The position numbers were made by a program, and so were the translations under genes. The notes under the pieces are model-generated. The model saw only the letters and a list, made by a program, of their open reading frames with translations, had not been told where the DNA came from and made no database searches. A DNA stretch of 64,000 nt, taken from Candidatus Zixiibacteriota bacterium (GTDB taxonomy: Bacteria > Zixibacteria > MSB-5A5 > WJJR01 > JAJRUJ01). Shown here in pieces: positions 1 to 21,561 of the stretch; position 1 is the first letter of the stretch; each line of letters opens with the position of its first letter. Where the stretch lies: contig JAGVQM010000040.1 in assembly GCA_020051695.1 (NCBI GenBank), positions 1 to 64,000 on the forward strand, written 5' to 3'.

Positions 1-2123
<2,123 letters not shown>

Positions 2124-2181
2124 GAAATCCTTGGGTGGTTCGATCGAAGATACTCGGCTTACTTATACGCACCAGTATGAA

Positions 2182-2194
2182 GTTGTCAAAGAAC
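2182..2194 (-). promoter_or_regulatory. boxA antitermination element before 23S
   Basis: The minus strand reads GTTCTTTGACAAC, close to the rRNA boxA consensus (TGCTCTTTAACA), about 60 nt upstream of the 23S 5' end. A near-identical element precedes 16S at 4412-4424. Known role: binding of NusB/S10 and rRNA antitermination; the assignment here is by sequence match and position. Confidence 0.7.
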
Positions 2195-2259
2195 GGATCT
2201 ATGGTTAACCGGCCCCAGGCCGGCAAACAGCCACAATTATTGTTCTGCCCCATGACACA

Positions 2260-2332
2260 TGGAGATGACCGGGATCGAACCGGCGACCTATGGCTTGCAA
2301 AGCCATCGCTCTCCCAACTGAGCTACATCCCC
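2260..2332 (-). tRNA. tRNA-Ala (anticodon TGC)
   Basis: The minus strand folds as a cloverleaf: acceptor GGGGATG paired with CATCTCC, D-arm AGCTCAGTTGGGAGAGC, anticodon loop TTTGCAA (TGC), T-arm with GTTCGATCC. The 3' CCA is not encoded. It sits in the 16S-23S spacer downstream of tRNA-Ile, the usual arrangement. Confidence 0.97.
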
Positions 2333-2452
2333 AAGTATAGAATCATACCGAAGGACGCGCGGCTGGAACTCGTCCCGCGCCGCCTCCGCCTGCCCGCCAA
2401 GCAGCGGGCCCACGGGGCAGATCGTCCATTCTCAAAATTTCAAAGAGCACAA

Positions 2453-2526
2453 TGGGCCTAAGTGGAATCGAACCACTGACCTCGCGCTTATCAGGCGCGC
2501 GCTCTAACCAGCTGAGCTATAGGCCC
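2453..2526 (-). tRNA. tRNA-Ile (anticodon GAT)
   Basis: Minus-strand cloverleaf: acceptor GGGCCTA paired with TAGGCCC, anticodon loop CTGATAA (GAT), T-arm GTTCGATTCC. CCA is not encoded. First tRNA in the 16S-23S spacer. The stretch 2527-2740 between it and the 16S end holds only spacer RNA that I could not assign further. Confidence 0.97.
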
Positions 2527-2733
2527 CTTTTTCTGCGGGCAAGCCGCCGTTGGAGACCTACCCCAACCGGTCCGGGGCTGAGTTTCGATGCTCAACGCGC
2601 TAGTCTGGCGATCCCCGCCCCGGTACTGCAAAAAAAATTTATAAACGAAAATAGCGTGTGCGGTCGACCGATTGATGTGTTCGACCTCGGAAAGCCGCTG
2701 CCCGGCTCTGTCGAGCCCGGGTACGACTAACCG

Positions 2734-4279
<1,546 letters not shown>

Positions 4280-4411
4280 AAATATTCTTGCTTATTTTCC
4301 GCTCATAATGGAACACCAGTACAACATGTTCCTTCTTGACGTAGCCGAACCAGTTCCGAAAAACCAATTCAGCCCGCACCAATTCGATGCGATTACGCAC
4401 ACGCTATTTCG

Positions 4412-4424
4412 TTGTCAAAGAGCT
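4412..4424 (-). promoter_or_regulatory. boxA antitermination element before 16S
   Basis: Minus strand reads AGCTCTTTGACAA, matching boxA. It lies in the leader between the promoter and 16S, as in other rRNA operons; the copy before 23S at 2182 shares TTCTTTGACAAC-like core. Confidence 0.75.
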
Positions 4425-4455
4425 TTGCTACCCGCCGTACTTACGGCAGACGCAG

Positions 4456-4483
4456 AATCTAATACATAAAAATCTGCTGTCAA
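4456..4483 (-). promoter_or_regulatory. sigma-70 type rRNA promoter
   Basis: Minus strand: TTGACA (4478-4483), 16-nt spacer, TAGATT (4456-4461). A second TTGACA lies 15 nt further upstream and the region above is AT-rich, like an UP element. Predicted start of transcription is near 4449, giving a leader of about 170 nt before 16S. Confidence 0.75.
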
Positions 4484-4664
4484 GTGCTATGTTGTCAATC
4501 TTCGAAATATTTTTCAACAACTTCTATCGACATTGTCCCCGAGCGACTTAACCAACCGGTCTTTTCGCCCAACACACTCTACGCGCCAACATCCCGGTCG
4601 TTTGCTCATTACCGTAATCGGGTGACGTTTTCAGTAACTTCCTGTTAACCATCCACTTAGCAAA

Positions 4665-4737
4665 AGCCACCGAGCGGGGTCGAACCGCTGACCTGTCGAT
4701 TACGAATCGACTGCTCTACCAACTGAGCTACGGTGGC
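4665..4737 (-). tRNA. tRNA-Thr (anticodon CGT)
   Basis: Minus-strand cloverleaf: acceptor GCCACCG with CGGTGGC, D-arm AGCTCAGTTGGTAGAGC, anticodon loop TTCGTAA (CGT), T-arm GTTCGACCC. CCA is not encoded. It lies between tRNA-Phe and the rRNA promoter; whether transcripts run on into the rRNA leader cannot be told. Confidence 0.96.
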
Positions 4738-4856
4738 CCAATTCATTCGGTGTTTGTCTCTCCGTTACCTATCCACGAATGCCGGCTTCAGGCCGGACCT
4801 TTTACCCGTCTACTTCTTGTTGTCCGTCGCCATCATCTTCTGCGGGGTAAAAAAAA

Positions 4857-4929
<73 letters not shown>

Positions 4930-9163: not shown

Positions 9164-10153
9164 TCACAACCGCGCGGTCAAACCGACGCGATGCACCGTA
9201 CCCAGTTCGGAAAGCTGTCCCAAGGCATAATCGATGCGCAGGGAATTGAATGTCACCCCAAAGCCGCCGGTGAATCCGGCATATTTGTCGTTGCTTGAGC
9301 CGGTCTCAATATCGGCGCGCCGGGACGAAAAGCCGGCCCGCAGATAAAACGGCGAAAAATAAACCAGCTCAGAGCCCAGTGAAAACCGGATCTGGTCGTC
9401 GGAGGATTTGCTCACATCCCCGACGACAATCAGCGGCAGGCCGCGCATTTTATGTGAGGCGCCCAAAGCGAATTGGATCGGCAGTTCATCTTTATGTGAT
9501 TCGGTTAAACCATCCATTTGCGCGCCGAGATTAGTTACGGCGGCGCCCAACCGGGTACGGTTGTCGGCGAAAGTGTAGAGAAAACCGAGGTCGGCGGCCA
9601 TGCCCCAGGAGGTTGAATCCTCAATCGATTCCAGAATGAGCCGGCCGGTCATGCCCATGCTGAGACGGGCGGAGAGGCGATAGGCCCCGGTCAGGCCGAA
9701 GGCCATATCCGACGCGGTGAAAGTCCCCAGCCGGTTGCCATCGGCATCGGCGGCGATCAAATCCCCATAGCTCATATACTGCACCGAAGCGCCGAAGGAG
9801 GCCCGCTCACCGAGGGGGCTGACCAACGCCAAAAATCCCGATTGCAAATCAGAAATCCAGGAATTATAGGAGGCGGCAACGTATGTCGCACGGGGTGCCG
9901 CGGTCAGTTCCTCGCCGTCATTCCATGGTTCAGCCAGCCGGATTCCGGTAATCCCCGCCGGATTATAGTATAGCGCCGCATAATCATCCGCCAACCCGAC
10001 ATATGCGCCACCCAGGGCCGCGGGGCGTGCCCCCACGCCGATTTTAAGAAAACTGTACCCGGCGGTCCCGGCATTGTCATCAATGGCCTCCGCCGGCAAC
10101 CAGGTGGCGAACATCATCACCAAAACCGCTGCAATTAAAATCGGTCGTCTCAT
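9164..10153 (-). CDS. PorV/PorQ-family outer-membrane beta-barrel protein
   Basis: 329 residues with a signal peptide (cut after Ala-Glu-Ala) and the family's N-terminal hallmark: Phe-Leu-Lys-Ile-Gly-Val-Gly-Ala-Arg-Pro-Ala-Ala-Leu-Gly-Gly-Ala-Tyr-Val, then Ala-Leu-Tyr-Tyr-Asn-Pro-Ala-Gly. The rest is alternating beta strands ending in Val-Gly-Leu-Thr-Ala-Arg-Leu, as in barrels. PorV is the outer-membrane shuttle that receives cargo bearing type IX sorting tails; PorV/PorQ-family relatives without that role also exist. Five genes in the window have such tails, so a cargo role is plausible but unproved. Start ATG has GAAGGTG upstream. The 250-nt gap above it (10154-10403) holds a possible TATAAC -10 box near 10231-10236 and nothing else I could assign. 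Confidence 0.85.
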   Translation of the reverse strand: MRRPILIAAVLVMMFATWLPAEAIDDNAGTAGYSFLKIGVGARPAALGGAYVGLADDYAALYYNPAGITGIRLAEPWNDGEELTAAPRATYVAASYNSWISDLQSGFLALVSPLGERASFGASVQYMSYGDLIAADADGNRLGTFTASDMAFGLTGAYRLSARLSMGMTGRLILESIEDSTSWGMAADLGFLYTFADNRTRLGAAVTNLGAQMDGLTESHKDELPIQFALGASHKMRGLPLIVVGDVSKSSDDQIRFSLGSELVYFSPFYLRAGFSSRRADIETGSSNDKYAGFTGGFGVTFNSLRIDYALGQLSELGTVHRVGLTARL

Positions 10154-12204: not shown

Positions 12205-14478
12205 TCAGATGAAAGCCATCGGCTCGGTCCGGCGCGCGCCCTCCTGAATAAACACCTGCAGCCGTTCCAGGACCAGCTCGCGCGGATCAAGGTCCTCCGC
12301 CCCGCCTAGATACGTGATAATGTCTGCCGGACGCACGCCTCCCTGAGCGGTGATGGCGATTTCCATTTCTATAAAGAGGTCTACTCCAGCTGTATTCAGG
12401 CGCAGCTCCCGGACATGCGGACGCAAATCGACACGCTTAGTCCCGCTGTCGGCAACCCGTTCAAACCAGACAGAGGACTGGGCCATAAATTCTTTTATCC
12501 GCCCCTCCCACGCTCGGGCCGAATGCGGCAGTTTCACCCGGTAGCTCATCACATTGATACGTTCGAATAATGAGACTGCTTTTGCCGGCAGTGGCAGGGT
12601 CGCAATGATTTCCAGACCGACCGGGAAGTTCGCTTTCAGGGAATTGACGTGGCCGGGTTCAAAATCGGCATCGAGGACGACGTCAAAATATTCGGCCCGG
12701 GAAATAGCGCCCCAGGGCAACGGCGGACCAAAGGAAATTTTCGGCCGAGGGTGGTAGCCGGCCGAGTATTCGACCGGAATCCGACTGCGGCGGACGGCAC
12801 GTTCGACCATGCGGGCGACGTCGAGATGGGAAAAGAAACGCAATTGTTCGGTTTTGGCATATTGTACGCGCAGCCGCCGCTGGGGAACAGTACCCAGCCG
12901 CCGGGTGAACGCCGCTTTCCGCTGGCGGCGGCCGAAAACCTCGGCCAATACCGGCAAGTCCGTCGGTTCCGGAAAACGGTCGCTCGGCAGATCAGCATTA
13001 TGCTTCGGTTCGAGGAACGGCGACAACGACAAGTCAAGCGGCCTGCCGAATTCCGGCAAGGCCACGCCCGCTGAGTGAGCGCCGGCCAGAATGGCGGCAA
13101 ACAACTCCGCGGCAGGCAGCGGCCGGCCATCGGTGGCGCCAAACGGCAGTTCAGCCAAAACACGAGTCAATTCCGGCCCGGCCCGCAAGAGAAACTGACG
13201 GAGCAATTCGGCGCAGGGTTCAAAATAATTTTCCATGGGCACGCCGGGAAGCCGCTGAGCAGCACCCTGATGGATGGCATTCAGCACTGCTTGTATCCGG
13301 CCATCATATTCAAGGGGGCCCTGCCAGTCGATTCCCGCCGCGGGCACCCAGTTGATCCGCACGACACGTTTATCAGCATATGATTTGCACTGCCGGACAA
13401 GGTGGTCGGCCATCGCCACCAGCGATGAAAGTCCGCCGCGGTATTCGTTCCAATCGTTAAAACAATACGCGAGCACGATAACCTGCCAGCCCAGAGCCAA
13501 TGCCTGCCGGCCGGCCTCGGCCAGGGGATGTGATTCGATATCATCAATATGCTTACCACCCGGGAAAACCAGGGGCAATTCCGATTTGAGAAAGTGCGGG
13601 CGAATGCCGGTCCAATTCGCCAGAAAATCGTCGGGGGTAATCGGCGGCACGCGGATTTGCAGATGCGCGAGGTTGGCCCGCTGCGACAGATGAGTAAAAA
13701 TATCGGGAAACTTAGGATAATGCCGACCACGTGGGGAGATAAACCGGACATTTTCCAAGCCGGTTTTGTCCAGCCCCAGCAGCAGATCACGCGCGACCGA
13801 ACCGGGCTGACGCGGCGTGGTTTCCCGTGCTGTGTTCAGCGGTCCGGAAAACAACGGAATTTTCAATTCGTCGGTCTGCGTTCCGGTCAGGGCCACCAGC
13901 TGCGTGGTTTCGCCCCGGGAAAAAAATTGTTCGACCGCATGACCGGAATCGAATCCCAGCTTTTCACCCAACGTGCGCACCAGATCGGTGAACGAAAGAC
14001 CGCCGATGAATATCGCAGAGCAGCAGCCGAGGAAAGGCGGAAAAACCGCGCCCGCGCTGATGAACACCACGGGCGGACCTGCACCGGCAGCGCGAAACTC
14101 CACCAGCATGCGCGGGATGCGCAGGGCATCCAGCGGATCCGAAATATAAAAAATCAGAAAATGGAATGCAGTCCAGGGACTTTTTGTTTCCAGCGAGAAC
14201 GGCGGGACACGCAGTTGATCCAGGCGCTGACGGGCGTCCTCATCAAAAAGTATTGCCCGTTCGGCGGCGACGCCGGGGACCAAATTGAGGATGTGGTACA
14301 GCCGCTGGTAATCCAGGTCGGCCAGATGCGCACCCGGTTCGCCCGGATGAACCAGCAATAAGCGCACCGCAGCATCCGGCTGGGGAATAACGACACCCGG
14401 TTCATTGCCGGCGTACCGCCCCGGTTTTATGACATAGGGAAATAGATGAATAACCGGATCGAAGCGGTTTTCGGTCAC
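12205..14478 (-). CDS. DUF2344 protein with a degenerate, cysteine-less radical-SAM half
   Basis: 757 residues from GTG at 14478 (GGGGAGGG upstream). The family (TIGR03960 radical-SAM protein fused to DUF2344) is recognisable throughout: N-terminal Lys-Pro-Gly-Arg-Tyr-Ala-Gly-Asn-Glu, Ala-Glu-Arg-Ala, Pro-Pro-Phe-Ser-Leu-Glu-Thr-Lys, and at about residues 530-757 the DUF2344 core (Val-Gln-Tyr-Ala-Lys-Thr-Glu-x-Leu-Arg-Phe-Phe-Ser-His-Leu-Asp, Tyr-His-Pro-Arg-Pro-Lys-Ile-Ser-Phe-Gly-Pro-Pro-Leu). Where the radical-SAM loop with CxxxCxxC should be (near residue 215) there is Ser-Gly-Pro-Leu-Asn-Thr-Ala-Arg-Glu-Thr and no cysteine cluster. The enzyme therefore seems to have lost SAM radical chemistry while keeping the fold and DUF2344. 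Function of DUF2344 is unknown; it often lies beside ribonuclease G or ribosomal genes. Confidence 0.85.
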   Translation of the reverse strand: MTENRFDPVIHLFPYVIKPGRYAGNEPGVVIPQPDAAVRLLLVHPGEPGAHLADLDYQRLYHILNLVPGVAAERAILFDEDARQRLDQLRVPPFSLETKSPWTAFHFLIFYISDPLDALRIPRMLVEFRAAGAGPPVVFISAGAVFPPFLGCCSAIFIGGLSFTDLVRTLGEKLGFDSGHAVEQFFSRGETTQLVALTGTQTDELKIPLFSGPLNTARETTPRQPGSVARDLLLGLDKTGLENVRFISPRGRHYPKFPDIFTHLSQRANLAHLQIRVPPITPDDFLANWTGIRPHFLKSELPLVFPGGKHIDDIESHPLAEAGRQALALGWQVIVLAYCFNDWNEYRGGLSSLVAMADHLVRQCKSYADKRVVRINWVPAAGIDWQGPLEYDGRIQAVLNAIHQGAAQRLPGVPMENYFEPCAELLRQFLLRAGPELTRVLAELPFGATDGRPLPAAELFAAILAGAHSAGVALPEFGRPLDLSLSPFLEPKHNADLPSDRFPEPTDLPVLAEVFGRRQRKAAFTRRLGTVPQRRLRVQYAKTEQLRFFSHLDVARMVERAVRRSRIPVEYSAGYHPRPKISFGPPLPWGAISRAEYFDVVLDADFEPGHVNSLKANFPVGLEIIATLPLPAKAVSLFERINVMSYRVKLPHSARAWEGRIKEFMAQSSVWFERVADSGTKRVDLRPHVRELRLNTAGVDLFIEMEIAITAQGGVRPADIITYLGGAEDLDPRELVLERLQVFIQEGARRTEPMAFI

Positions 14479-14548: not shown

Positions 14549-14740
14549 CTATCCGTAGATCTCCTTGTGATTGCACTTGCACACGCCGACGAAATGCTCG
14601 CGGAACCGCAAAGTCCCCTTCGGGTTATCACGGTTAGAGTCCACCAGCAAGACGTTTTCGACCGGCCCGCCGCATTCCGGACAGATCTTCACTTCCGCCT
14701 TTTTACTCATCTTGTCAGCGAATGACACTGTTTTCGGCAT
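14549..14740 (-). CDS. Zinc-ribbon miniprotein
   Basis: 63 residues. Cys-Pro-Glu-Cys-Gly-Gly (residues about 20-25) and Cys-Lys-Cys (about 54-56) give four cysteines in a zinc-ribbon-like spacing; between them is Phe-Arg-Glu-His-Phe-Val-Gly-Val. Very strong translation signal (AAGGAGGTGA, 6 nt before ATG) and its own near-consensus promoter suggest an abundant housekeeping protein. No function is known to me. It is transcribed toward the DUF2344 gene 70 nt downstream. Confidence 0.8.
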   Translation of the reverse strand: MPKTVSFADKMSKKAEVKICPECGGPVENVLLVDSNRDNPKGTLRFREHFVGVCKCNHKEIYG

Positions 14741-16680: not shown

Positions 16681-19600
16681 TTACTTCGCCAGCACCATTT
16701 TGCGGGTTTGACGAAAATTCCCTGCCGCAAGGCGGCAGAAATATAAACCGGAACCGGCGCAGACGCCGTCAGTGGAGCGGCCGTCCCAGACCACGACATG
16801 ACGGCCGGCAGACAGGTGGCCGGAAGCGATTACGGCAACTTTTTCGCCGCGAACATTGAAAATAACGAGCTCGGCGGAGCTTGCCACAGGCAAAGTGAAG
16901 GTTATCACCGTCCGCGCATTGAATGGGTTGGGATAATTCTGCGCTAAGGCAAAGTCCTGAGGAGTGCCGCTCCCCTGCTCGAGCCAGCCGGCGAGAATAG
17001 TTTTTAAAGCGGCACCCGCGGCGGTCGCCGGACAATAATCAATGGCGCTATAGATGGCCCGCAAAATCCCCGCATCGAGGGCGGCCAACTCCTGCAGCAA
17101 GCGTTGTTGGCTTGCCGGTTTTGCCTGTTGGGCGTCGGTCCAGAATTCGAGAATCGGACAAACATCGAGGGAATCAATGACCCCGTCCCCGTCGGCGTCG
17201 GCATAAGTCGCCGCGACGTCGGCCCACGCGTAAGCCGGCTGCCTGCTGAAATCCACGTAATCGGCGGGCCGCGGCGGGCCAGTCTGCAGCCAGTAACGTC
17301 CGATGGGAAGGACATCACGCTCATCCGCGGCTCCATCATCATCAGTATCGCCGGGGAATACGCCGGGACCGGTGACAAAGTGGAAAACGAAATCATCGGC
17401 GGGCGAACGTTCCTCTGCACCATCGCCGTCGCCATCCACCGTGTTGTATACCGAGTCGTAGACCCGGTCCGCCACGAGGCGGACATCGAGCGTGTCCAAT
17501 GGCGGCCAGAGCTCCGCACCATAAAATGTCAGCAAGCTGTTGGTGGCCGTCCAAGCGCCCTCCAGCCGCCAACCCAGGCGCCGCGAGGATATAACCATGG
17601 TCGTATCGGTGTTATCCACTTTGACCGGCTCGGAAAATTCAAGGACCACCGAATCGCTAATCAATATATCATTGTCGCCCGGGGAGGGATAAGTCCTCGT
17701 CACCGTGGGAGCGGCTTGCTCGGGTATCCCACGGCCGAGCAGGACAATCATTGTGTCCCGGACGGCCGGATCATCGGTCACAATATTCAACACTCCGGCA
17801 TACTCTGCCCGTCGGCGGGGCCGGAACCCGACGGAGAAGGAAATCGACGAATCCGGCAACACGGGCACATCGATGATTGTCGGAGCGCTGAAACCGTCCC
17901 CGGCAGCAGTGACCGACAGCGCGGTAAGCATTTCAGTCGGGGACGTGTTGATGATTTCTACGGGCAGATAAACCGTCTTATTGACCACGGCGGAATCAAA
18001 ATTTAGGGTATCCGGCCGCAAGGATAGGAAGGTCTGCCCCTGATGGTTAAAGACTATCGTCTTGTTTATTTGATACTTGAAAACTGAGTCAATCGCCGAG
18101 ATGGTGATTGTATACAACTCGGAGGCCAAATCGTGCGAGGGAATGACCGCTACCCGGGAGGTGAACGGCGGGACCCCGGATGAACCGGAAAATACCGTCG
18201 TCAGCTTCCCCCGCTCGGGCGTGGGCTGCACCTGTGCCCGGAGATAGATCGTATTAGGATAAGCCGTCAGGACAGTATCAAGGTCGAGGGAGTAGAAAGT
18301 GGTATCTCCCGCGACCGAGGGATTACCGACGGTAAACTCATAACTGCCTACAATCACACACGCTTGTTTTTCGACCTGCGTCCCCACACCGCAGGAATTC
18401 CCCGCAGTGAGTGAAACGGTATATATGCCGGGGCTTTGATAGACATGTGCCGGATGGGCCAGATGCGAAAGCTCGCCGTCGCCAAAATTCCAGGTCCAGT
18501 AGGACGGCAGGTTTTCCGATTGATCGGTGAAATACACCGAATCCCCGACGTAGGCATCGCCGGACGGGCAGGTGAACGCGACAATCGGCCGGTCCTGACC
18601 GACGATCGGCGCGGCCAGCGGGATCGTATCGGTCCCACACTCGTGGACGGCGATCAGTTTCACGTAAAACGTGTCAATCGATGAATAAGTATGTGACACG
18701 GATGGCCCCGAGGCCGAGGTCCCATCCCCGAAAAGCCACAGGTACGAGGTAACCGGCCCGGTGGCGGCCGCGTTAAAAGTGACGGTCAGGGGCACACAGC
18801 CGGTAGTTTTATTCGCCGTGGGAGTGATTGTCGGCCGGGCGTGCACGGTAATGTACGCCTGCCGAATGACCGTGGTGGAACCGCAGATCCCGGTAGCGAT
18901 GAGCCGGACGGAATATGTCCCGGCTGTTTGATAAACATGGACCGGGTCCCGTGCGATCGAAGTCGTGTTATCGGCGAAATCCCACAGGTACGAGGAAATG
19001 GAATCATCCGACACCGTATAGAACCGCACGGTCAGCGGATTGCACACCGAGCCCTCAATTGTGGAATCCGGGTCATGGGAAGAAGTGATGGCCACGGCGG
19101 GTTTGGCCTGGGTCCAGATAAAATCCTCTTTGATCACCGTGATGGTGTCGCAGGGGCTGCTCACGGTGAGAGTAACGGCATATTTTCCCGCCGCAGTATA
19201 CACATGAATCGGCGAGGGTTGGTTCGAGACATTGCCGTCGCCAAAGTCCCAGGTGTACTCCTCGGCCAGCCCGTCAATCTCAGCAGCAAAGGGTACGGTG
19301 TACGGCACACAACCGAACAGCGAATCGGTGGTAAAATCGGCGGTGAGTTCGTCATAGACCTGGATGTAACCGGCGCGAATCAACGTATCGGAATCAAGAT
19401 CACCCCGGGCGATCAGGGTGACATCATATACCCCCGGTGATACATACGTATGCGAGGGGTTCTTCGCCGCCGACGTGGTGCCGTCGCCGAAATCCCACTG
19501 CCAGAGTTCATCGATACAGGTGGAGATATTGGTAAATTGCACGGTAAGAAAATCGCAACCCGCAGTCACCGAGGCAGAGAAATCGGCATGCTTGTCATAA

Positions 19601-21522
19601 TCCAAAAACTCCAATGCCCCAAGATCAGGTTTGAGATATGCACTGCGCAGGTGCCCTTCCAGGTCGGTTTTAGTGAGAGTGTCGATGGCGTAGATATCGC
19701 CCTTGTTATAAGCCCCGGCGTTACAGATCAGGTGGTAATCACCGGCCGCTGGATCGACGAAACCCGGATCGGCGGAAATCACGCTTTCCCCGATCGTCAG
19801 GCCGGTCGCAGGATAGGCGCCGGCGTCATTATTATGAAAAAGCGAATAACTGACCCTGGCATTATTGCCGGGGTCACTTTGGAGCCCCCAGCCAACCCGG
19901 TTGGAGGCAATGATAGAGTTTTTTATATGGAGATCAGCCAACGGCGCAATGTGGATGCCTGCCCCGGCATTAGCGTTACCGGAAGCATTTTCCGCGATGG
20001 TGTTGTTGATCATGATCGGCGAGGCGTTATCGTCAATGTATACCCCTCCGCCCGCCAAAGCCGTATTGCCCGCGATGATATTATTATAGATAACCGGTGA
20101 ACTGGAAATCAGGTACATTCCGCCGCCCAGCGACGGTGTGGTGAGGGTGTCGAGCTTATTATCGATAATCATGTTGTTTCGGATCACCGGTGCACCACCG
20201 GCAACAACCACGCCGCCGTGCAGGAGTTCCGCACACGAAGGGCACGTCACTGTGAAACCGTCGAGCACGGAATGCAGGACTTCCACCCCCGGAGGGCCGG
20301 CCGGCAACGGTGGAAACGTGACCGGAGTGCCTTTTCCATTCCCGTTAATAATCGTGGCCCCAGCCCCGGACTGGCTGCGCAGTTCGACCGGCCAGATATC
20401 ATAAGCCACGTCTTCGTTGTATTGCCCGGGGTATACGACAATGACGTATCCCGTATCGGAATGGTCCAGCGCATACTGGATGGTCAAATATGGTGCGGTC
20501 CGGGACCCCGCGCCCAGCGTGTCGGCCCCGGTCTTGGCCACGAACAGGGTATCAGGACCGAATTCGGGCGGGCGTTCAAGCACACTGATGGTTACCATCG
20601 CCGAATCGGCGTCCTGACCGTCCGAGGCAATGAACCGGACGGTATAACTGACTGGCGCTGCGCCGGTGGGGGTAAAGGCAAACTGCCCGGAACCATCCCC
20701 ATCGTCTGAGAAGACCGCGGCCGGCGGCAATGGACGGGCCATCAGTACAGGAATCGTCCCGTCCGGATCAGTGGCCGTAACGGCAAATGTCAGGGTCTCT
20801 TCGATACGAACGCTCTGGTCGGCGATCTCGGCGAGTTGGGGAGGACCATTGACATTAATCACAGTGACTTGTGCGGTTATATTCGCAGTTGAATCGCCGT
20901 CGGAGGCATGAAATTGAACCTGGTAAACACTGTCCTGATCGTAGTCTGGCTGGAAGGTAAACGAGCCGGTTCCATCGCTGCTGTCGATAAACACAGCATT
21001 GGGCAAAATCGTCACCATGGACAAGGCCAGCGAATCCCCGTCGGGGTCAGTCGCGCTCACCAGAAAAACCAAAGTATTGCCCTCGTTCACCTGCTTCGGG
21101 CTGATATCCGCAAAAACCGGCGAGCAATTTACATCCACGACGGTAATATCCACTTGTACCGACGCCGTGTCAAAATCGCCCTCGATTCCGGCCGGAGCAA
21201 TGGCGTATAATGTCAGGGTATAATCACCGGCCTGAGTACAATTGGGTGTCCAGTCAATATCGGCTGTCCCCGGCCCGGTGTGAGTCAGGATCAATCCCTC
21301 TGTTCCGAATGAATAACCGAAGGTGATGCTGTCGTCATCAGGATCGGTTGCACTGACGCTGAAACTCAGCAGTTCTGTTTCCTGAACTGCCTGCTCATCG
21401 ATATTGCCCACAAAGGACGGCGGCGCGGCCAGGGCTGCCGGGACCGACCCGAAGCCGGCAACCAGCAGTCCGCCGATGCAGACCAACGTTGCCCGCCCCA
21501 AAATACTGAGACATTTCATCAT
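16681..21522 (-). CDS. Giant secreted multi-domain protein: Ig-like, beta-helix, PKD, dockerin-like, sorting tail
   Basis: About 1613 residues. Order seen: signal peptide (to about 32, Ala-Leu-Ala-Ala); three cadherin/Ig-like domains with Thr-Asp-Pro-Asp (36-318); a right-handed beta-helix with many Asn-Asn-x-Ile turns (325-620); five PKD domains each with Trp-x-Phe-Gly/Ala-Asp and His-Val/Thr-Tyr (about 640-1080); a HYDIN/ASH-like domain (1180-1300); a Big_5-like Ig domain (1305-1405); two calcium-loop segments, Asp-Thr-Asp-Asp-Asp-Gly-Ala-Ala-Asp and Asp-Ala-Asp-Gly-Asp-Gly-Val-Ile-Asp (1415-1490), dockerin-like; and the C-terminal Tyr-Pro-Asn-Pro-Phe-Asn tail ending Lys-Met-Val-Leu-Ala-Lys. 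Likely a surface adhesin or polysaccharide-binding protein exported by a type IX-like route. No catalytic residues recognised. Start: ATG 21522 (another ATG follows at once). Confidence 0.85.
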   Translation of the reverse strand: MMKCLSILGRATLVCIGGLLVAGFGSVPAALAAPPSFVGNIDEQAVQETELLSFSVSATDPDDDSITFGYSFGTEGLILTHTGPGTADIDWTPNCTQAGDYTLTLYAIAPAGIEGDFDTASVQVDITVVDVNCSPVFADISPKQVNEGNTLVFLVSATDPDGDSLALSMVTILPNAVFIDSSDGTGSFTFQPDYDQDSVYQVQFHASDGDSTANITAQVTVINVNGPPQLAEIADQSVRIEETLTFAVTATDPDGTIPVLMARPLPPAAVFSDDGDGSGQFAFTPTGAAPVSYTVRFIASDGQDADSAMVTISVLERPPEFGPDTLFVAKTGADTLGAGSRTAPYLTIQYALDHSDTGYVIVVYPGQYNEDVAYDIWPVELRSQSGAGATIINGNGKGTPVTFPPLPAGPPGVEVLHSVLDGFTVTCPSCAELLHGGVVVAGGAPVIRNNMIIDNKLDTLTTPSLGGGMYLISSSPVIYNNIIAGNTALAGGGVYIDDNASPIMINNTIAENASGNANAGAGIHIAPLADLHIKNSIIASNRVGWGLQSDPGNNARVSYSLFHNNDAGAYPATGLTIGESVISADPGFVDPAAGDYHLICNAGAYNKGDIYAIDTLTKTDLEGHLRSAYLKPDLGALEFLDYDKHADFSASVTAGCDFLTVQFTNISTCIDELWQWDFGDGTTSAAKNPSHTYVSPGVYDVTLIARGDLDSDTLIRAGYIQVYDELTADFTTDSLFGCVPYTVPFAAEIDGLAEEYTWDFGDGNVSNQPSPIHVYTAAGKYAVTLTVSSPCDTITVIKEDFIWTQAKPAVAITSSHDPDSTIEGSVCNPLTVRFYTVSDDSISSYLWDFADNTTSIARDPVHVYQTAGTYSVRLIATGICGSTTVIRQAYITVHARPTITPTANKTTGCVPLTVTFNAAATGPVTSYLWLFGDGTSASGPSVSHTYSSIDTFYVKLIAVHECGTDTIPLAAPIVGQDRPIVAFTCPSGDAYVGDSVYFTDQSENLPSYWTWNFGDGELSHLAHPAHVYQSPGIYTVSLTAGNSCGVGTQVEKQACVIVGSYEFTVGNPSVAGDTTFYSLDLDTVLTAYPNTIYLRAQVQPTPERGKLTTVFSGSSGVPPFTSRVAVIPSHDLASELYTITISAIDSVFKYQINKTIVFNHQGQTFLSLRPDTLNFDSAVVNKTVYLPVEIINTSPTEMLTALSVTAAGDGFSAPTIIDVPVLPDSSISFSVGFRPRRRAEYAGVLNIVTDDPAVRDTMIVLLGRGIPEQAAPTVTRTYPSPGDNDILISDSVVLEFSEPVKVDNTDTTMVISSRRLGWRLEGAWTATNSLLTFYGAELWPPLDTLDVRLVADRVYDSVYNTVDGDGDGAEERSPADDFVFHFVTGPGVFPGDTDDDGAADERDVLPIGRYWLQTGPPRPADYVDFSRQPAYAWADVAATYADADGDGVIDSLDVCPILEFWTDAQQAKPASQQRLLQELAALDAGILRAIYSAIDYCPATAAGAALKTILAGWLEQGSGTPQDFALAQNYPNPFNARTVITFTLPVASSAELVIFNVRGEKVAVIASGHLSAGRHVVVWDGRSTDGVCAGSGLYFCRLAAGNFRQTRKMVLAK

Positions 21523-21561
21523 TAACAACCTGTAACCGAGCGACTTATTTCCGTAATGTTC

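Follow-up and report, generated by a model that had tools for sequence, protein, structure and literature searches.

The window, the whole 64,000-nucleotide stretch of a Candidatus Zixiibacteriota contig analysed here, carries a gene that joins a radical-SAM-like half to a DUF2344 domain, and it raises the question of what such a protein does when the cysteines of its cluster site are gone. Fusions of this kind occur in many phyla, and in the literature we found no described function for them and nothing useful on DUF2344, TIGR03960 or TIGR03936 except a remark on Pfam clan membership (PMC7955657). A preliminary description proposed that the protein is a pseudoenzyme in which the function of DUF2344, and not radical chemistry, is what is kept.

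The window gene and its predicted folds

The features that bear on this question are as follows.

12205..14478, minus strand: whole gene, radical-SAM pseudoenzyme half plus DUF2344, 757 aa, GTG start (open frame, profile scores, AF2)
13177..14370, minus strand: predicted cobalamin-type radical-SAM fold, residues 37-434, cluster and SAM motifs gone (VIA-align)
13825..13848, minus strand: SGPLNTAR in place of CxxxCxxC, cluster loop deleted (alignments and DNA reading)
13444..13464, minus strand: CFNDWNE in place of the relatives' SAM-binding GLPTET motif (alignment)
12208..12876, minus strand: DUF2344, predicted TruA-type pseudouridine-synthase fold, residues 535-757 (PF10105, AF2, Foldseek, VIA)
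12709..12735, minus strand: SFGPPLPWG loop of DUF2344, placed over the TruA catalytic-Asp loop GRTDAGVH, Asp-less (hhalign, probability 43%; residue counts)
14549..14740, minus strand: zinc-ribbon miniprotein, 63 aa, upstream neighbour (conservation at class-native loci)

The 757-codon frame is open from end to end, and the encoded protein matches both PF10105 (DUF2344; 156.9 bits, cut-off 23.8) and TIGR03936 (176.6 bits, cut-off 71.9) over their full length and well above threshold. It keeps SHLD, GYHPRPK and SFGPPLP, so that the DUF2344 landmarks are intact as claimed, although the radical-SAM partner to which this domain is fused, or next to which it lies, is intact elsewhere and dead here. 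With the TIGR03960 family of B12-binding radical-SAM proteins it shares the domain order, an N-terminal similarity to Radical_SAM_N2 and the predicted cobalamin-radical-SAM fold, but it reaches just 31.8 bits (residues 16-112) against a cut-off of 462.3 and has lost both CxxxCxxC and the SAM-binding GLPTE motif. Family alignments place SGPLNTAR where relatives read RGCxxGCRFC, confirming the loss first noted at this segment, and CFNDWNE where they read GLPTE. No CxxxCxxC is encoded in any of the six frames across the gene and 300 bp on either side, the sole loose cysteine triplet there, CQQCIDCC, being out of frame; nor does the protein offer an alternative cluster site, since its seven cysteines are scattered and form no in-frame triplet, just as the preliminary description had read their spacing. 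Judged by motif or by score, the window protein is not a radical-SAM enzyme. Its closest named relative, from Zixiibacteriota Dive96_bin10.176 (L094), is 49% identical.

A frameshift or sequencing error as the source of the missing motif is ruled out: the motif stands in no frame, and none of the native copies in the window's order has it (G001-G005, G008 and L098 were compared, and G007 is split at contig ends). The degenerate L098 copy groups within the window's Zixiibacteriota order although its contig is titled Acidobacteria (NC_groundwater_986), which is probably a wrong label.

An AF2 model of the full-length protein has a mean pLDDT of 86.9, and VIA-align superimposes residues 37-434 on MgmA (9ccb) with Z 12.8 over 328 aa and on CysS, TsrM, MiaB and MtaB with Z 10-11. 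The front half is thus predicted to retain the cobalamin-radical-SAM fold of methyltransferases such as MgmA and TsrM/CysS, which bind [4Fe-4S] and SAM, whereas the window protein lacks the ligands. Sequence searches for solved relatives return none with the profile of the degenerate copies and only a weak match, to MgmA 9ccb, with the intact copy described below.

DUF2344 modelled alone has a mean pLDDT of 93.5 and best matches TruA, PUS3, PUS1 and PUS10 (VIA Z 13-14 over about 200 residues; Foldseek E 2.6e-8 against TruA-type structures). This model agrees with the Pfam-based link to pseudouridine synthases, in which one clan unites DUF2344 and PseudoU_synth_1 as components of the pseudouridine synthase domain (PMC7955657). 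The likeness to TruA, PUS1 and PUS3 extends over the whole domain, but identity is about 10-15% and neither the invariant Asp nor the RTD motif of TruA is present: the only invariant residues of 102 DUF2344 sequences are His32, Gly55 and Pro58, with no Asp among them. At the position of the TruA Asp these sequences carry Pro (61), Ala (19), Ser (10), Gly (10) or Thr (2), an assignment of modest confidence because it was mapped by one profile alignment (hhalign, probability 43%) that lays the SFGPPLPxG loop over GRTDAGVH. We therefore describe DUF2344 as a predicted TruA-type fold that lacks the invariant catalytic Asp. TruA-fold chains also occur in small-subunit assembly intermediates of the trypanosome mitoribosome (6sga FB/FC and 9hny FB/FC, Z about 13), which share the fold and offer a ribosome-assembly setting, but these are eukaryotic, sit in a large assemblosome and have no radical-SAM relative attached.

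A second, intact copy and opposite patterns of conservation

The same genome encodes an intact homologue (G000:C23:21877-24417, 899 aa, 661.6 bits) that carries the motif CTEGCRFC. Radical-SAM chemistry is not wholly lost from the genome, because this copy keeps the motifs; the claim that such chemistry is not retained stands for the window copy and does not extend to the genome. Eight of the nine genomes of the order pair a degenerate native copy (about 757-846 aa) with an intact second copy (about 900-957 aa), and in the ninth, G006 (93% complete), the native copy was not found. In a tree of DUF2344 the degenerate copies group with the class-native copies (support 97/93) and the intact copies of the order stand apart in a clade of their own (98/99). 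The tree built from the radical-SAM half gives the native Zixiibacteriota clade an SH-aLRT of 100 and puts the order's intact copy outside it, among copies from other phyla. On these phylogenies, the B12-type radical-SAM/DUF2344 fusion has its native Zixiibacteriota orthologue in the window gene, and the intact copy was probably acquired by horizontal transfer from another phylum, since it groups with the copies of other phyla. Read most simply, an intact copy entered the order horizontally, after which the catalytic half of the native copy decayed; that the second copy is instead an old paralogue lost elsewhere is less simple.

The two copies also differ in their surroundings. Class-native copies are followed by rsmB, a gene for a PASTA protein and often rpe, with rsmB present at 16 class loci; rsmB encodes the 16S rRNA m5C967 methyltransferase. 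In the window's order the genes downstream of the native copy are instead hutI and lptE, with rsmB located on a different contig, and the acquired copy is preceded by def and followed by mtaB/miaB. RNase E/G follows the copies of Nitrospirota, Desulfobacteraceae, Prochlorococcus, Bacillota and one unclassified bacterium.

Constraint on the two halves was compared as the log ratio of front-half to DUF2344 distance, calculated for both copies over the same genome pairs of the order and hence over the same divergence time. The ratio is +0.28 (95% interval 0.14 to 0.42) for the native copy, whose front half diverges faster, -0.60 (-0.76 to -0.43) for the acquired copy, whose radical-SAM half is the better conserved, and -0.27 for canonical single copies. 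Conservation is swapped between the halves: the native copy keeps DUF2344 better, as expected were this its kept part, and the acquired copy keeps the radical-SAM half better. Both halves of the native copy are still constrained, because dN/dS is low in the closest pair of the order, G005/G007: about 0.02 for DUF2344, which is 97% identical, and 0.08-0.11 for the front half. Saturation of dS makes the ratio unreliable for G000/G001, the pair that includes the window's own genome. The pseudoenzyme claim accordingly holds, as the active-site motifs are dead, with the refinement that the dead half is not junk, since it is folded in the model and under purifying selection; for the latter reason it may serve a separate function.

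Loss of the motif across Zixiibacteriota

DUF2344 is found in 123 of 132 genomes of the class (77 of the 78 good ones), and TIGR03960 exceeds its cut-off in just 98 of the 132, a shortfall that is partly due to contig breaks; the genomes are mostly metagenome bins, and several copies are truncated at contig ends. Members of the family that lack the motif occur in several Zixiibacteriota lineages, with differing lesions. Some are substitutions, leaving SCC in G039, ACC in G011 and G037 and ACA in G034, and others are deletions of different lengths (G020, G023, G016/G030, G079, family f17 and the window's order). Genus g24 (G028, G048 and G078) has dropped the entire front half and encodes a stand-alone DUF2344 protein of about 250 aa, with no TIGR03960 match in any of the three genomes. 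CxxxCxxC is present in all full-length copies fetched from the remaining class genomes and in all full-length rows examined from outside Zixiibacteriota, with L098 counted in the window's order. Thermotoga and Synechococcus genomes, used as controls, also gave matches and are carriers of an intact homologue.

Mapped on a careful tree of 113 rows, the state of the motif changes 8 times, and at least 4 of these changes are forced by well-supported branches; a quick tree of 127 rows gives 10 changes, of which only 2 are forced. These reconstructions suggest that the motif was lost about 8-10 times across Zixiibacteriota, a count that leans partly on weakly supported branches. Outside the window's order the degenerate copy is the genome's only copy, so that these lineages have no intact one, and where the surroundings were read it keeps the rsmB neighbour of intact copies, which argues that the losses happened in place. 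The recurrence of motif loss in the phylum with DUF2344 retained, even as a stand-alone protein, further supports the original proposal that DUF2344 is the part being kept.

Three further observations concern the family in these genomes. One TIGR03960 copy (G098:C79:64456-66798) contains an in-frame TAA, which is either a sequencing error or the beginning of another loss. A second CxxxCxxC-like motif, DCRxxCxGC, lies about 320 residues past the first in canonical Nitrospirota and Bacillota relatives (L118, L101, L122, L150 and others) and is absent from every Zixiibacteriota copy that was read, even the intact ones. Of the 16 genomes with a single, degenerate copy, 13 have a heme-copper oxidase gene, vs 40 of 89 with an intact one (class genomes G011-G131), with a Fisher p of 0.013 that is uncorrected for relatedness, a corrected pair test having too few informative pairs; a link between motif loss and oxygen or an aerobic lifestyle is possible, as a lead that may be due to chance.

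The zinc-ribbon gene reported upstream of the window gene is real. Its 63-aa product has the pattern SFADK...CPxC...CKCNxxEIYG and is encoded on the same strand upstream of the native locus in the order and in families f5, f6, f10, f13, f17, f18 and f19, usually within 450 bp and farther away in some loci; at the loci examined it never accompanies the order's acquired intact copy. It is present as a single copy in 19 of 19 Zixiibacteriota genomes tested, is absent from three genomes outside the phylum, and appears to be universal within it. At the window and 30 or so related loci it gives only weak Pfam and NCBIfam matches, and it is possibly an undescribed miniprotein linked to the ribosome or to RNA.

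Proposed function and alternatives

We favour, with a probability of roughly 0.6, a reading in which the native copy has lost its cluster and SAM sites and kept its fold, with DUF2344 doing the kept work as an RNA-binding maturation or assembly factor on a pseudoenzyme scaffold while the acquired copy carries the radical-SAM chemistry. An intact homologue, probably from another phylum, would have come to carry that chemistry in the window's order, and the native copy would then have lost its [4Fe-4S] and SAM sites with the fold retained. DUF2344 would perform the remaining work, putatively as a TruA-like dimer that binds structured RNA, either tRNA or precursor rRNA, and acts as an RNA chaperone or as an assembly or maturation factor; we infer RNA binding from the predicted fold and the gene neighbours, and by analogy the domain may work like those relatives of RNA-modification enzymes that serve as chaperones or assembly factors. 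The dead barrel might provide a scaffold or a surface that touches the RNA, with the zinc ribbon encoded upstream as a possible partner.

An alternative that we regard as unlikely is a split enzyme, in which the dead copy is the non-catalytic subunit of a complex with the acquired intact copy and supplies the RNA-binding domain for a radical-SAM reaction on RNA. TruA-type folds do dimerise, the halves kept by the two copies are complementary, and the copies occur together in eight of nine genomes of the order, G006 having yielded no native copy; however, the two lie at separate loci with different neighbours, and the dead copy needs no intact partner, because it is the sole copy in several other lineages. 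The idea that the degenerate TIM-barrel half was rebuilt into a different, cluster-free enzyme sits poorly with lesions that are unrelated from lineage to lineage, and with the one genus that dropped the front half entirely and kept DUF2344. Despite the modelled fold of that half and the purifying selection on it (dN/dS about 0.08-0.34), we consider such new chemistry improbable, the front half being the faster-evolving one in the native copy.

There is a slim chance that DUF2344 is itself an active pseudouridine synthase with a different catalytic residue, for which one can cite the TruA-type fold, complete over about 200 residues (Z 13-14), and an Asp that 89 of 102 sequences carry at domain position 80; yet neither this nor any other Asp joins the three invariant residues, the RTD motif is missing, and a genuine TruA is encoded in 10 of 10 Zixiibacteriota genomes tested. 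Simple decay to a pseudogene would account for the lost active-site motifs in a genome with a homologous copy elsewhere, but it is scarcely credible for an open 757-codon frame whose loss is order-wide and old, whose DUF2344 is so strongly conserved in the closest pair and whose locus persists along with its zinc-ribbon neighbour.

The favoured reading, DUF2344 as the working half, can be widened tentatively to the phylum, and we hold the wider version at somewhat less than even odds. Because the chemistry of the front half is lost and the rear half is kept, the rear half is suggested to do an essential job; DUF2344 would be a nearly universal RNA-maturation or ribosome-assembly factor of Zixiibacteriota, a dead TruA fold partnered by a 63-aa zinc ribbon specific to the clade, and the radical-SAM enzyme an optional accessory discarded about ten times, with the window's order having split the two jobs between a dead native and a live acquired copy. 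The pattern amounts to a repeated natural separation of function in which radical chemistry is dispensable and DUF2344 is not. It shows experimenters which half to study, with a minimal protein of about 250 aa to work with and, in one genome, two paralogues between which the halves are divided. It is also a further instance of pseudoenzymes arising more than once in the radical-SAM superfamily, on whose pseudoenzymes a literature search returned no relevant paper.

Elsewhere in the window, a partial rRNA operon occupies positions 1-4929 (minus strand), with a complete 16S gene, a 23S gene cut by the window start and four tRNA genes, two of them within the 16S-23S spacer. A gene at 16681-21528 (minus strand) encodes a probable surface protein of 1615 aa that contains PKD-like repeats and ends in a sorting-like tail at the C terminus. 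Together with a PorV/PorQ-family gene near it (9164-10153), this protein suggests type IX-like secretion.
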